Assembly: GCF_016811105.1 (NCBI RefSeq) | Contig: NZ_JAFBGM010000002.1 | Span: 1,302,001-1,366,000 of the forward strand | Direction of reading: 5' to 3' | Origin: Aurantibacter crassamenti | GTDB taxonomy: Bacteria; Bacteroidota; Bacteroidia; Flavobacteriales; Flavobacteriaceae | Length of the DNA: 64,000 nucleotides | Shown here: piece by piece, positions 58,033 through 63,448 of the stretch | Numbering within the stretch: the first letter of the stretch is position 1 | How the letters are laid out: every line of letters starts with the position of its first letter | Made by a program: the position numbers and the translations under genes | Notes under the pieces: generated by a model | What the model saw: only the letters and a program-made list of their open reading frames with translations | What the model was told of the DNA's origin: nothing | Databases searched by the model: none

Positions 58033-59115
58033 TTATGCATTAACAATTTTCTCTTGATGATTAATTGATTCTTGGTGAATTGCTTTGAACATTTTCAAAA
58101 CAAATTCTTCACTCAAACCATTTGCTTCACCTTCTAAGATCATAGCACCAAGAATTTGGTTCCATCTATTAGATTGTAAAACAGCAACATTTTTCTGCTT
58201 TTTAAGAGCTCCAATACTGTCAGAAACTTTCATACGTTTCCCCATTGTATCGATTAATTGATGATCAAAAATATCAATCTGTGCTCTTAGATTACTCAAT
58301 TTAGAATTGTATTCAGCTTCCGAATCAGTTTCTTTTCTAATTTTAAGATCTTTCATTATCTGCACTAATGCGGCAGGTGTAACTTGTTGTGCAGCATCAC
58401 TCCATGCATTATCAGGATCGTGATGTGTCTCAATCATCAAACCATCAAAATTAAGATCAAGAGCTGTTTGAGAAACATCAAAAATCATATCACGCTTACC
58501 TGTAATATGCGAAGGATCACATATTAATGGTAAATCAGGAAACTTATTTTGGAACTCAATAGCCAATTGCCATTCAGGAATATTTCTATACTTTGTTTTT
58601 TCGTATGTAGAAAAACCACGGTGTATAGCACCTAAGTTTTTAATACCCGCTGTATATAAACGCTCAATACCACCTAACCATAATGATAAATCAGGATTAA
58701 CTGGGTTTTTTACCAAAACTGTTTTATCAGTACCGGCAAGTGCATCAGCAATCTCTTGCATGATAAACGGACTCACCGTTGAACGTGCACCAATCCATAA
58801 CATATCAACATCATATTCTAATGCTAATTTCACGTGTGCTGCATTTGCTACTTCAGTAGTAGTTTTCATTCCGGTTTCTTCCTTAACCTTTTGCAACCAT
58901 TTTAAGCCTAAAGCACCTACGCCTTCAAAGTTTCCAGGACGAGTACGTGGTTTCCAGATACCTGCACGGTAATAGTTCACATCAGTATCTTTCAAGCTAT
59001 GGGCAATGCCCAAAACTTGCTCTTCTGTTTCAGCGCTACAAGGCCCTGCAATCACTAATGGATGGTCTAACTTCATGTTATCTAACCAACCTCTCATCTC
59101 TTTTTTATTTTCCAT
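58033..59115 (-). CDS. Bifunctional DAHP synthase / type II chorismate mutase
   Basis: A 360-residue fusion of the entry enzyme of the shikimate pathway and of the first step towards Phe and Tyr. Residues about 1-260 are a DAHP synthase of the KDO8PS-like type with VIAGPCSAETEEQV, KPRTRPGNF, CDPSHITGKRDM and IETHHDPDNAWSD. Residues about 270-355 are an AroQ-type chorismate mutase (LRAQIDIFDHQLIDTMGKRM, LKKQKNVAVLQSNRW). The fusion allows the mutase part to act as a sensor for feedback. It is last in the Phe/Tyr operon, 1 nt after tyrA. Confidence 0.95.
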   Translation of the reverse strand: MENKKEMRGWLDNMKLDHPLVIAGPCSAETEEQVLGIAHSLKDTDVNYYRAGIWKPRTRPGNFEGVGALGLKWLQKVKEETGMKTTTEVANAAHVKLALEYDVDMLWIGARSTVSPFIMQEIADALAGTDKTVLVKNPVNPDLSLWLGGIERLYTAGIKNLGAIHRGFSTYEKTKYRNIPEWQLAIEFQNKFPDLPLICDPSHITGKRDMIFDVSQTALDLNFDGLMIETHHDPDNAWSDAAQQVTPAALVQIMKDLKIRKETDSEAEYNSKLSNLRAQIDIFDHQLIDTMGKRMKVSDSIGALKKQKNVAVLQSNRWNQILGAMILEGEANGLSEEFVLKMFKAIHQESINHQEKIVNA

Positions 59116-59116
59116 T

Positions 59117-59977
59117 TTATTGTTTGTTAAGCGGTATTCCTTTTAGTATTTCCTTTATTTTATTTGTGTCGTTCATTTCATTGTAAATTCCTTCAAAATC
59201 ATCTTTTTCAAGAAGTTCTTTAAAGTCTTGAAGGTTTTGTATGTACTCATTTAATGTCTCAACTACATTCTCTTTATTCTGCTCAAAAATTGGTGTCCAC
59301 ATTGCAGGTGAACTTTTTGCCAAACGCACAGTGCTTTCAAATCCACTGCCCGCCATGTCAAAAATATCACGTTCATTTTTCTCCTTCTCAATAACGGTCT
59401 TTCCCAACATAAAAGAGCTGATATGTGACAGATGAGACACATATGCAATATGCTTGTCGTGTGCCTCAGGATTCATATATCGAATTCGCATACCCATTTG
59501 TTGAAAAATTGCCAATGCTCTTTCTTGTAATTTAAAAGCAGTTTTTTCAACTTCACAAATAATATTTGCTTTGCCATTATACAAATTCTCAATTGCCGCC
59601 GATGGGCCAGAAAATTCTGTACCAGCAATTGGGTGACATGCTAAGTAGTTTCTTCTCTTTGGATGATCTTTCAGCGTTTCGCAAATTAAATTTTTGGTTG
59701 AACCACCGTCTATTACCACACAATCGTCATTTACAGCATCCAAGATTTTAGGAAGTTCTGCTACCAAAACATCCACCGGAATACTAACAACTACCATATC
59801 AGCTATAGTCAAATCGGCATAACTTGCCTTTGCATCAATAATTTTTAAATCAATTGCCTCATCAAGATGTGACGGATTATTATCGACACCAAAAACCTTA
59901 GTTTCTGGATGAATTCTTTTGATGTCTTTTGCGAAAGAACCACCAATTAAACCAATACCGATTATAAATACATTCAT
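59117..59977 (-). CDS. tyrA: Prephenate dehydrogenase (TyrA)
   Basis: Oxidative decarboxylation of prephenate to 4-hydroxyphenylpyruvate on the way to tyrosine. The 286 residues start with the NAD motif VFIIGIGLIGGSFAKD and contain CHPIAGTEFSGP with the catalytic His and DKHIAYVSHLSHISSF further on. No ACT or mutase domain is attached. The start at 59977 (MNVFIIG) is preferred over 59995, which adds MLISNI. It lies 43 nt after the aminotransferase gene. Confidence 0.94.
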   Translation of the reverse strand: MNVFIIGIGLIGGSFAKDIKRIHPETKVFGVDNNPSHLDEAIDLKIIDAKASYADLTIADMVVVSIPVDVLVAELPKILDAVNDDCVVIDGGSTKNLICETLKDHPKRRNYLACHPIAGTEFSGPSAAIENLYNGKANIICEVEKTAFKLQERALAIFQQMGMRIRYMNPEAHDKHIAYVSHLSHISSFMLGKTVIEKEKNERDIFDMAGSGFESTVRLAKSSPAMWTPIFEQNKENVVETLNEYIQNLQDFKELLEKDDFEGIYNEMNDTNKIKEILKGIPLNKQ

Positions 59978-60020: not shown

Positions 60021-61166
60021 TTAAAATCTGCTTATCGCTTCTTCTATTTTATCTTCTGTTACACATAATGAAAACCGAATATAGCCTTCACCATTACTAC
60101 CAAAAATGGTACCTGGCACCAAAAATATGTTTTTATCATACAGAATCTCATCTATAAAAGCTTCTGAACTTTTACTGCCCAAAGGCAATTTTGCCCACAC
60201 AAACATACCAACGGCATCTGTGTCATACGTACAATTTAGCAAATCAGCTAACTTGAATATCAAAGCTCTTCTCTTTCGGTATACTTCATTCAAATCATCA
60301 TACCAACTTTGACTACTCTTTAGCGCTTCTATAGCCCCTTTTTGTATGCCGTAGAACATGCCAGAGTCCATATTACTTTTTACTTTCAATACAGCGTTTA
60401 TATGATCAGAATTTCCGAGTACCATGCCAACACGCCATCCGGCCATGTTAAAAGTTTTACTCAAAGAATTTAATTCTAAGGCTACATCTTTAGCGCCATT
60501 TACTGCTAAAATACTCGTAGGCTCATCATTTAAAACAAAACTATACGGGTTATCATTAACTAACAGAATATCATTCCGCTTCGCAAAAGAAACCAATTTC
60601 TCAAGCTCAATTTTTGCTATACGTGCACCAGTTGGCATATGCGGATAATTCACCCACATAATTTTCACTTTGTCAAGATTCTCATCTTCCAAAGCATCTA
60701 AATCAGGTAACCACCCATTTTCTTGCTTTAAACCATAATATTTTGGAACAGCCCCCACCAGTTTGGTTACGGAGCTATACGTTGGGTATCCCGGATTTGG
60801 AATTAAAACCTCATCTCCCGGATTTAAAAAAGCCATGCTAATATGCATAATGCCTTCTTTAGAACCCATTAATGGAAGAATTTCAGTTACTGGATCAGCA
60901 GTCACTCCGAATTTTGAATTATAAAAAGCAGCAAATGCCTCACGCAATTCAGGTAATCCTTGATAACTTTGATACTGATGTGCTCCCTCTTCTAAAACAG
61001 CATTTTGAATACTTGCTACTATGTCAGCTGAAGGTTGTAAATCAGGACTACCAATACCCATATTGATTATTGGTCGGCCTTCAGCCATAAGCCCCCTAAC
61101 CTCTCTCAATTTCTTAGAGAAGTAGTATTCTTCAACCGTATGTAATCGATCAGCGGTGCGAATCAT
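60021..61166 (-). CDS. PLP-dependent class I/II aminotransferase (aromatic pathway)
   Basis: A 381-residue fold-type I aminotransferase. The PLP lysine is in SLSKTFNMAGWRVGM; NMGIGSPDLQPS is the N-terminal arm; NPGYPTYSSV and the C-terminal YIRFSLC bind substrate. Located between pheA and tyrA, it most likely transaminates phenylpyruvate and 4-hydroxyphenylpyruvate to Phe and Tyr, or prephenate to arogenate; sequence alone would also permit an aspartate or LL-DAP-type role. It overlaps pheA by 4 nt. Confidence 0.92.
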   Translation of the reverse strand: MIRTADRLHTVEEYYFSKKLREVRGLMAEGRPIINMGIGSPDLQPSADIVASIQNAVLEEGAHQYQSYQGLPELREAFAAFYNSKFGVTADPVTEILPLMGSKEGIMHISMAFLNPGDEVLIPNPGYPTYSSVTKLVGAVPKYYGLKQENGWLPDLDALEDENLDKVKIMWVNYPHMPTGARIAKIELEKLVSFAKRNDILLVNDNPYSFVLNDEPTSILAVNGAKDVALELNSLSKTFNMAGWRVGMVLGNSDHINAVLKVKSNMDSGMFYGIQKGAIEALKSSQSWYDDLNEVYRKRRALIFKLADLLNCTYDTDAVGMFVWAKLPLGSKSSEAFIDEILYDKNIFLVPGTIFGSNGEGYIRFSLCVTEDKIEEAISRF

Positions 61167-61990
61167 AGCATTGCATTTTTATATTCACCAAGTACTTTAA
61201 TATCATCTAACATGATGTTCAACAATGATTTTGCTTTATCAAAATGTGCATAATCATCAAATGTGACATCTACAAAGAATGCATACTTCCAAGGTTTTTC
61301 AATCACGGGTAAAGACTGAATCTTAGTAAGACTCAAATTACAATCACTCATTACATTCAATACTGTCGCTAAACTACCGCGTTTATGGTCGGTTATAAAA
61401 CGAATAGAGGCCTTGTTGATTTCTTCCTTAGGTAACTCTCTATTTTTTGTTTTTACAATAATAAAACGAGTAGAGTTATTTTTGATCGTTTGAATATCAG
61501 ATGCTATGATGTTCAAACCATATAACTCAGCCGCCACTTTAGGAGCAATGGCCGCTACACCCATTAATTGATTTTCTTGAATCTGCTTTGCAGTCTCGGC
61601 TGTATCAACATCTTCAATCAATCTAATTTTAGGATATTGTCTAAAAAAATCTTTGCACTGTAGTAATGCCATAGGGTGAGAGCGTACTTCAACAATGTCT
61701 TCTATTGATTGCCCGTTAAGCACCATTAAATTATGATGTATATTCAAATAATGTTCACCAATAATATGCAAGTTGTGGTCGTTCACCAATGCATAATTTG
61801 GAATAATAGAACCGGCAATTGAATTTTCAATAGCCATTATACCCTTATCAGCCGTACCGTCTAATAATCTATCGACCAAATAATCAAAAGACATGCATTC
61901 AATAAGTTCGGTAACATCGCTACAGCGTTCACGAACCACCTGATGGTGATTTGAACCTTTGATACCTTGTATGGCTATTTTAATTGACAT
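61163..61990 (-). CDS. pheA: Prephenate dehydratase with altered ACT motifs
   Basis: Converts prephenate to phenylpyruvate. The 275-residue protein starts MSIKIAIQGIKGSNHHQ and has the catalytic NSTRFIIV (TRF motif) before a C-terminal ACT domain. In the ACT domain the Phe-binding signatures differ from E. coli: GALV reads GSLA (HKRGSLATVL) and ESRP reads QSLP (KIQSLPVI). No chorismate mutase domain is attached; that activity is fused to DAHP synthase further down. It is the first gene after the attenuator leader at 62013-62135. An ATG at 62014 would lie in the terminator U tract, so 61990 is chosen. Confidence 0.94.
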   Translation of the reverse strand: MSIKIAIQGIKGSNHHQVVRERCSDVTELIECMSFDYLVDRLLDGTADKGIMAIENSIAGSIIPNYALVNDHNLHIIGEHYLNIHHNLMVLNGQSIEDIVEVRSHPMALLQCKDFFRQYPKIRLIEDVDTAETAKQIQENQLMGVAAIAPKVAAELYGLNIIASDIQTIKNNSTRFIIVKTKNRELPKEEINKASIRFITDHKRGSLATVLNVMSDCNLSLTKIQSLPVIEKPWKYAFFVDVTFDDYAHFDKAKSLLNIMLDDIKVLGEYKNAML

Positions 61991-62012: not shown

Positions 62013-62039
62013 AAAAAAGTCCCGTATTTAACGGGACTT
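62013..62039 (-). terminator. Attenuator (intrinsic terminator) in front of pheA
   Basis: On the minus strand AAGTCCCGT (62039-62031), loop TAAAT, ACGGGACTT (62025-62017), then TTTTTT down to 62013. It ends 22 nt before the pheA start, so it must be bypassed for the operon to be expressed. Its 5' arm can instead pair with 62079-62071. Confidence 0.92.
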
Positions 62040-62071
62040 CAATTTGCTTATATATTCAATACTTCACAACA
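62038..62071 (-). promoter_or_regulatory. Antiterminator pairing of the pheA leader
   Basis: AACGGGGCT (62079-62071) pairs with AGTCCCGTT (62038-62030) over 9 bp with a single G-U. It consumes the 5' arm of the terminator, so the two structures exclude each other. A ribosome at the leader stop codon would cover the first arm; one stalled on the Phe codons would leave it free. Confidence 0.85.
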
Positions 62072-62135
62072 GCCCCGTTCTTCTCTTAAAAAAGAAGTAA
62101 AAAAAGAAACCGTTAAAAAAGAATTGCGTATTCAT
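62064..62135 (-). CDS. pheL: Phenylalanine leader peptide of the pheA operon
   Basis: A 23-codon frame from ATG 62135 to TGA 62064. Codons 5-7, 10-12 and 14-16 are Phe (TTC TTT TTT each time) and codon 13 is Tyr (TAC), so 10 of 12 residues in the core are aromatic. It starts MNTQ and ends KRRTGLL. It lies between a likely promoter and a terminator 24 nt after its stop codon. The antiterminator arm AACGGGGCT (62079-62071) lies inside codons 19-22. It has no sequence likeness to E. coli PheL beyond Phe content. This is a control peptide, not a functional protein. Confidence 0.9.
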   Translation of the reverse strand: MNTQFFFNGFFFYFFFKRRTGLL

Positions 62136-62152
62136 AAAACTTAAACTTGCCG

Positions 62153-62160
62153 CTAATGTA
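62153..62160 (-). promoter_or_regulatory. Likely -7 box of the pheA operon
   Basis: On the minus strand TACATTAG differs from TAnnTTTG at one position and lies 17 nt before the leader peptide ATG. Initiation near 62147 would give a leader of about 135 nt up to the attenuator. No clear -33 element is seen. Confidence 0.4.
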
Positions 62161-62329: not shown

Positions 62330-63448
62330 TTATTTTTTATTGAAATGATATTGGTACACTTCTTCTTCACCTTCATAGGTATCAGTTTCAGTAATTACTA
62401 AATTATCAGCAGTAAGTGTTATTTTTCCATCAAAAATTAAATATCCATCTTCTTCGACACCGTTCTCAGTTTGTCCATCGTAGGTATCCGTATACTCAAA
62501 TTCTACTAACGTAAGTCTGCTTTGTTCTTCGTCATAAGCCCAATTACCTTTAGAAGAATAACTTGAATTTTCTTCAACATAAACTAATTCACAAGATGCT
62601 TCCGAAGCGTCCCAATCAACATCTTTATCCGTGTCATCAGAAACATATGAGTATGAACCATCACTTTTAAAAGTAATTTCTAATCCATCGGTAGTATAAC
62701 AATAATCTACGGTAACCTCTTTAGTTACCCCACTATTGCAATCTAAATTACGTGTATAATCATAATCATCACAATATTCTTCACCTACATTTATTGTTTC
62801 ACCATTATCAACTTCTTTAGTAAATTCCCAATCAGCAACAAGATTAACATTTCCTCCCCAAGATTCTACTGTTACACAGACTTCTGAAGGCTGGCTTACA
62901 AAGCCCTGCCCATCATATACACAAATTATATAACAGAAAGTTCCTGCAGAGACTGCTGCTTCAAAGTTCACATCAATAGAAGTATCTTCCCCTTTACTTG
63001 CTAAACTTCCTTTAGCAGCATTTTTATTGGCAAAAAATCCTCTTTCTATTGTTTTTGGTGCTTTATTACTAACTCCAGTAGTAGCACTGGCCGGAATATC
63101 AAAATAAGTATCTGCCATTCCGTTTTCGTCTTTCAACTGAACATATGCTCCAGCGAATCCTTCAGGAGCCTTAAATTCAATGTTAAAACCATTTTTTTGA
63201 AAAGCAGTTTGTTTCTTATAATCTAAGCTGAATTCTATATCACCATTTGGAACAGGGCTTCCTTGTTTTTTTGTAGCTCCATCAATAGTAACGCCATTAC
63301 TAACAGCATTAACATCTAATAAAACTTCTTCTTGCGCATTTACTCCGTCAGGATCAGGATCACTTGCAAGTTCTTTTGCATCATCTTTAGAACAGGATAA
63401 AGCAGCAATTGCTAAACAGCTCGTTAAGAATACGTTTACTTTTCTCAT
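62330..63448 (-). CDS. Lipoprotein of unknown function
   Basis: A 372-residue lipoprotein (lipobox ALSC near residue 19). The N-terminal half is beta-rich with an immunoglobulin-like part (residues about 60-200, SPVPNGDIEFSLDYKK, VSAGTFCYIICVYDGQG). The C-terminal half is a lipocalin-like sheet of Tyr-, Glu- and Asp-rich strands (SSYSSKGNWAYDEEQSRLTLVEFEY), with several Cys that could form disulfides. Such combinations occur among surface lipoproteins of flavobacteria. No catalytic motif is seen and I cannot assign a role. Confidence 0.82.
   Translation of the reverse strand: MRKVNVFLTSCLAIAALSCSKDDAKELASDPDPDGVNAQEEVLLDVNAVSNGVTIDGATKKQGSPVPNGDIEFSLDYKKQTAFQKNGFNIEFKAPEGFAGAYVQLKDENGMADTYFDIPASATTGVSNKAPKTIERGFFANKNAAKGSLASKGEDTSIDVNFEAAVSAGTFCYIICVYDGQGFVSQPSEVCVTVESWGGNVNLVADWEFTKEVDNGETINVGEEYCDDYDYTRNLDCNSGVTKEVTVDYCYTTDGLEITFKSDGSYSYVSDDTDKDVDWDASEASCELVYVEENSSYSSKGNWAYDEEQSRLTLVEFEYTDTYDGQTENGVEEDGYLIFDGKITLTADNLVITETDTYEGEEEVYQYHFNKK

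Follow-up and report, generated by a model that had tools for sequence, protein, structure and literature searches.

The window, by which we mean the whole 64,000-nucleotide stretch of the Aurantibacter crassamenti genome analyzed here, contains a leftwards-transcribed operon for aromatic amino acid synthesis in which pheA is followed by an aminotransferase gene, tyrA, and a fused DAHP synthase/chorismate mutase gene (Table 1); the original prediction had proposed this gene order, and the domain content of the products confirms it. The operon products make Phe and Tyr, and also provide the entry step common to Trp. Upstream of pheA is a small open reading frame with the codons ATG AAT ACG CAA TTC TTT TTT AAC GGT TTC TTT TTT TAC TTC TTT TTT AAG AGA AGA ACG GGG CTG TTG, in which Phe occupies codons 5-7, 10-12 and 14-16 (nine in total) and Tyr occupies codon 13, and re-reading of the sequence leaves this leader exactly as first described. 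No other ORF of 10-60 codons on either strand of the 64-kb window has six or more Phe codons in 12, and when the upstream region was shuffled 5000 times with its dinucleotide content preserved, no ORF reached the nine Phe in 12 codons found here. The start context is TTTTATG, without an A-rich stretch, which counts against reading the region as an attenuator; initiation in Bacteroidota uses little Shine-Dalgarno pairing. As is typical of attenuators, an ORF with clustered codons for end products, predicted from its sequence to be translated, stands ahead of a Phe/Tyr operon, and an intrinsic terminator is located between this ORF and the first structural gene, with the pheA start only ~23 nt past the U tract.

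Table 1. Features of the leader region and the operon, in window coordinates.
Feature	Coordinates	Strand	Remarks
-7 promoter-like box, Bacteroidota type, TACATTAG	62153..62160	minus	motif TAnnTT[T/A]G
Leader peptide ORF, 23 codons, MNTQFFFNGFFFYFFFKRRTGLL	62064..62135	minus	ATG at 62135, stop TGA 62066-62064
Arm 1, AACGGTTTC, codons 8-10	62106..62114	minus	pairs with arm 2 as protector stem (fold)
Arm 2, AACGGGGCTGTT, last base of codon 19 into codon 23	62068..62079	minus	frame-registered in 131 sequences
Arm 3, terminator 5' arm, GAAGTCCCGT	62031..62040	minus	alternative partner of arm 2
Arm 4, ACGGGACTT and U tract, 3' half of intrinsic terminator	62013..62025	minus	hairpin -15.3 kcal/mol
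pheA, prephenate dehydratase (PDT and weak ACT), first operon gene	61163..61990	minus	
Aminotransferase class I/II	60021..61166	minus	
tyrA, prephenate dehydrogenase	59117..59977	minus	NCBIfam NF006307 over cut-off
DAHP synthase fused to chorismate mutase (DAHP_synth_1 and CM_2)	58033..59115	minus	

The terminator is formed by AAGTCCCGT (62039-62031) and ACGGGACTT (62025-62017), followed by T's to 62013, and its 5' arm can alternatively pair as an antiterminator with AACGGGGCT (62079-62071, within arm 2). Both elements and their 9-bp complementarity are positioned as originally proposed, and one of the nine pairs is G-U. A third helix, absent from the original prediction, joins AACGGUUUC (62114-62106) to GGGGCUGUU (62076-62068) and constitutes a classical 1:2 protector stem. 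The leader-strand transcript has a predicted fold of -38.7 kcal/mol (z -3.9 relative to shuffles), and the full transcript folds in two parts, the 1:2 stem and the terminator. If the final bases of the terminator are left off, the 3' fragment instead adopts the antiterminator fold (-16.4 kcal/mol), with 9 bp between AACGGGGCU and AGUCCCGUU. As isolated helices the 2:3, 3:4 and 1:2 stems are calculated at about -14 to -15, -15.3 and -11.4 kcal/mol respectively, and the full 3' part at equilibrium adopts the terminator fold even with arm 2 free. These equilibrium values count against the attenuator reading; with terminator and antiterminator close in energy, the switch must depend on co-transcriptional order and timing and on the ribosome, as in known attenuators.

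The motif TAnnTT[T/A]G, which is the Bacteroidota -7 motif, is present no more than 90 nt upstream of the leader ATG at 177 of 198 loci, mostly at a distance of 24-28 nt and here at 25 nt. With the box at this position in most loci, the transcript very likely begins just ahead of the leader, and we predict a start ~10-15 nt before its ATG. The gene upstream (window 62330-63448), which codes for a lipoprotein-like product of 372 aa without any Pfam match, has a terminator-like hairpin of its own near 62307-62280.

The leader is widely conserved. A search with the pheA protein yielded 80 named Flavobacteriaceae loci (from Kriegella, Maribacter, Zobellia, Arenibacter, Flagellimonas and others), and 79 of these have a leader of 21-23 codons located 130-210 nt upstream of pheA, with MTKQYFWNGFYFYFFFKRGTGLL as the typical form; the exception (L113) has 155 nt of upstream sequence, maybe too short for a leader. 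Among 91 sampled Flavobacteriaceae relatives, comprising two congeners and 89 further genera, an aromatic-rich leader precedes pheA in 90 (88 found directly), and G025 is the only one without a leader upstream of pheA. The test of conservation put forward in the original prediction, a Phe-rich ORF kept in frame in relatives, thus finds an aromatic leader kept in frame in both samples. The leader of G082 is further upstream of pheA than in the other relatives, and that of G130 is intact but also further upstream, with an ORF resembling an inserted transposase between it and pheA. This intervening ORF (L281, G130:C8:144000-146200) is similar to REP-type (Y1) transposases, as judged by eye.

Of 233 regions upstream of pheA across the Bacteroidota, 198 pass a strict test that requires both an ORF with at least five aromatic codons and a G+C-rich hairpin with a U tract, and many of the others have visible leaders with hairpins below the G+C threshold used. 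Leaders are present in several other Flavobacteriales families and in other families of the class, as well as in three genomes assigned to the phylum but not to this class (L206, L208, L212), whose pheA genes are unusually similar to those of the class such that transfer is possible. Among these regions no leader is seen in the large family f4, where pheA is mostly divergent, or in f15, whose 0.6 Mb genomes look endosymbiont-like. A covariance model of the leader matches 125 of 149 genomes, including 121 of the 130 with pheA and four of the 19 without it (p ~3e-11, from counts tallied by hand from listings). Secondary matches to the model at E ~1e-4 in G070, G134 and G121 were rejected as unrelated terminators without aromatic leaders.

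The codon content of these leaders is not restricted to Phe. All 198 scored leaders contain both Tyr and Phe codons, and 125 contain Trp codons in addition and so cover the full aromatic set. In the window lineage codons 5, 7 and 11 specify Phe where most near relatives carry Tyr, Trp and Tyr respectively, and the window genome therefore has a version of the aromatic leader that is shifted towards Phe; the designation as a phenylalanine attenuator in the original prediction fits this lineage, but the leader family is an aromatic one. Aromatic identity is preserved through synonymous substitutions (TTT/TTC and TAT/TAC, at codons 6, 10-12 and 16) and through exchanges among TTT, TAT and TGG. Mixed aromatic codons suit an operon with tyrA and DAHP synthase among its genes. 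Codons 13-15 (TAC TTC TTT, window 62091-62099) are near-invariant in nucleotides among near relatives, including at synonymous sites, and may contribute to the apical hairpin of the 1:2 stem.

The pairing arms change jointly between taxa. In a comparison of 131 sequences, with arm 2 registered by reading frame and stop codon, the terminator by alignment, and one free offset allowed per leader class, 98.5% of cells are paired in the 3:4 stem, with many two-sided changes, and 86% in the 2:3 stem (~97% for its central five pairs). At one antiterminator pair, 99 of the 131 sequences have G-C and 29 have A-T. Leader classes with TGL and ETL endings are one base apart in register, and a misregistered joint alignment hides the covariation. 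A codon-shuffle control for arm 2 is weak, as it keeps the complementary codons, and was replaced by interspecies terminator swaps. None of 2000 trials in which whole arms were swapped between species reaches the observed pairing, and across 91 distinct terminator arms the leaders tend to fit their own terminator better than foreign ones (p ~2e-14; such values are not true probabilities, because the sequences are related and kinship inflates significance in the wider comparisons). Terminator arms as unlike as AAGCCTCG, AATCCCGCCT, GGGAGTTCTC, AATCCCGAC and CCTCTTGA each have a matching arm 2. Among 23 near relatives the terminator covaries, and the 2:3 and 1:2 stems are retained but show no informative substitutions; a shuffle test on this set detects no covariation of either stem, both being too conserved, and the 1:2 pairing is kept in 93.7% of cells without compensatory changes. 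The covariation anticipated in the original prediction is thus found between taxa for both the terminator and the 2:3 arms, but in near relatives the 2:3 pairing hardly varies.

The placement of arm 2 relative to the reading frame is likewise similar across taxa, while its sequence co-varies with that of arm 3, an arrangement appropriate to the antiterminator arm of an attenuator. In nearly all leaders it begins 7-12 nt past the final aromatic codon, the distance from the last Phe codon being 8 nt in the window leader. Its 3' end mostly falls 7 or 13 nt short of the last base of the stop codon (7 nt in the window leader). A ribosome covers roughly 9-10 nt beyond the A-site codon; with this spacing and footprint, stalling at any aromatic codon would free the core of arm 2, and a ribosome at the stop codon would cover it. 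Such a constant distance from aromatic codons to arm 2 is what the predicted attenuation mechanism needs.

We predict, with a probability of about 0.92, that the operon from pheA to the DAHP synthase/chorismate mutase gene is under the control of a classical ribosome-mediated transcription attenuator. RNA polymerase would start just upstream of 62135, with a ribosome translating the leader behind it. When charged tRNA-Phe is scarce (or, in most relatives, also tRNA-Tyr or tRNA-Trp) the ribosome would stall in the aromatic cluster, covering arm 1 but not arm 2, such that arm 2 pairs with the newly emerging arm 3, no terminator forms, and the operon is read. When aromatic amino acids are plentiful the ribosome would reach the stop codon and cover arm 2, the 3:4 terminator would form, and a leader RNA of ~130 nt would be released near 62013; if the leader is not translated at all, the 1:2 stem would sequester arm 2 and termination should again result. 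These bacteria would very probably sense aromatic amino acids by the speed of the ribosome on a tiny leader gene. The comparative evidence argues strongly for the ribosome-mediated attenuation of the original prediction, although not for the Phe-only label or the lack of precedent in the phylum that accompanied it.

In principle the terminator could simply be that of the upstream gene, with a chance ORF next to it and with pheA transcribed from its own promoter. The intergenic region is indeed T-rich, and Phe codons are TTT and TTC, but shuffling of this very region fails to yield such an ORF, a separate terminator-like hairpin belongs to the upstream gene, and a promoter-like box is located ahead of the leader. 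The ORF, the aromatic identity of its codons, and the distance to arm 2 are moreover kept across genera, and as we regard this conservation as already refuting a chance origin, its probability is close to nil. It is scarcely credible that the leader couples translation to some other outcome, such as Rho-dependent termination or translational control of pheA. The proximity of pheA to the U tract would allow RNA structure to affect its translation as well, and termination itself is a prediction; nonetheless the hairpin and U tract are retained at nearly all loci and co-vary, and across loci pheA is 57-138 nt from the leader stop, beyond both alternative helices.

Sensing of a ligand by the nascent or free peptide, with arrest of the ribosome by the peptide rather than by codon-dependent stalling on uncharged tRNA, would account for the core NGFYFYFFF conserved in the nearest relatives and for the near-invariance of codons 13-15. 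We nevertheless regard it as quite improbable, given that the order and number of aromatic residues vary freely in distant leaders while aromatic content stays, that F, Y and W interchange at the same codon, and that Trp, His and Tyr leaders in the same family match the product of the downstream gene. Codon-dependent attenuation is our preferred reading, and as attenuation works only with the ribosome close behind RNA polymerase, conservation of the leader predicts tight coupling of transcription and translation in Bacteroidota.

An Rfam search at the pheA locus reveals no riboswitch, T-box or known leader at cut-off. The proteobacterial pheA leader (PheL, RF01859) shares with the locus a short Phe-rich ORF, a terminator and alternative helices ahead of a prephenate dehydratase gene, and the RF01859 alignment to the locus places the AUG and terminator in register; its score is 29.6 bits (E 0.005 in a 431-base search), far under the curated cut-off of 55, and the locus is not assigned to that family. 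The leader is unrelated in sequence to PheL, as originally stated. The systems also differ in that the Bacteroidota family mixes Phe, Tyr and Trp, and in that the first gene here is a monofunctional PDT in an operon with tyrA and the DAHP synthase/chorismate mutase. In enterobacteria, the thr leader carries Thr and Ile codons, and the ilv leader Ile, Val and Leu codons. The present family resembles these in that a single leader carries codons for multiple end products of one branched pathway, but it covers all three aromatic amino acids and occurs in another phylum, and the mixed composition looks unusual.

The original prediction knew of no example from this phylum, which does not hold for this kind of attenuator, as Bacteroid-trp (RF01692) is a Bacteroidota Trp peptide leader (PMC2864571). 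It is found before trpE of the same genome (C2:1193391), at 49.6 bits against a cut-off of 49, where a Trp leader MTKIWWWSNSRKKS (WWW) is followed by a terminator (L237:1311-1425). RF01692 has no match at the pheA locus; the two share the phylum, a short ORF, a terminator and a biosynthetic operon, but are different leaders of different operons. Leader-peptide attenuators outside the Proteobacteria have been described for Firmicutes his genes (PMC2965389, PMC9413887) and in Actinobacteria (PMC1262725), and are, like the present one, independent leaders found by comparative genomics; aromatic operons of Bacteroidota are not treated in the accessible text of these papers. The literature searched, which excluded subscription papers, yielded no description of a Phe or aromatic leader from Bacteroidota.

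The aromatic pheA leader is thus apparently an undescribed family absent from Rfam, although of a known kind. On balance we favor the view that this family is old within Bacteroidota, reads the supply of Phe, Tyr and Trp through one leader, and controls a shared aromatic operon. If so, the textbook attenuation of trp, phe and his operons would extend to a conserved control of aromatic synthesis across Bacteroidota, and together with the His and Trp leaders would make ribosome-mediated attenuation a standard form of control in this phylum. Because the leader is so widespread in Flavobacteriaceae, finding a laboratory species that carries it, and testing it there, should be easy.

Other leaders were noted at additional loci. 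No leader is seen at the two ilvD loci. Upstream of hisG in the window genome (C2:24822) is a His leader MRNNNTHHHFYFCAQAR (HHH) with a terminator (L236:1336-1500), which has no Rfam match and is a candidate His attenuator. At all 30 Flavobacteriaceae loci examined (relatives L240-L268), hisG is preceded by a leader rich in His, which in most cases ends near QAR, and a hairpin with a U tract comes after this leader. In G035, which lacks this pheA, a leader MTNNNTWWSNSKFYLKR with a terminator (L279:168-320) precedes the DAHP synthase/chorismate mutase gene and resembles the trp leader WWWSNS. In G044, also without a pheA homologue, a leader MKNLNNTYYYYPILTRRIGQ (L280:196-344) precedes a gene whose product, an aromatic amino acid hydroxylase, would convert Phe to Tyr. 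The sensing logic holds in these two exceptions. The leaders in general also reveal, at the level of codons, which amino acids are important to a given lineage. The leaders of G044 (L280; TYYYY) and of G091 (L291; YTIYMYTFY), the latter likewise without a pheA homologue, are Tyr-rich and are followed by terminators ahead of the aromatic amino acid hydroxylase gene, and are candidate Tyr attenuators.
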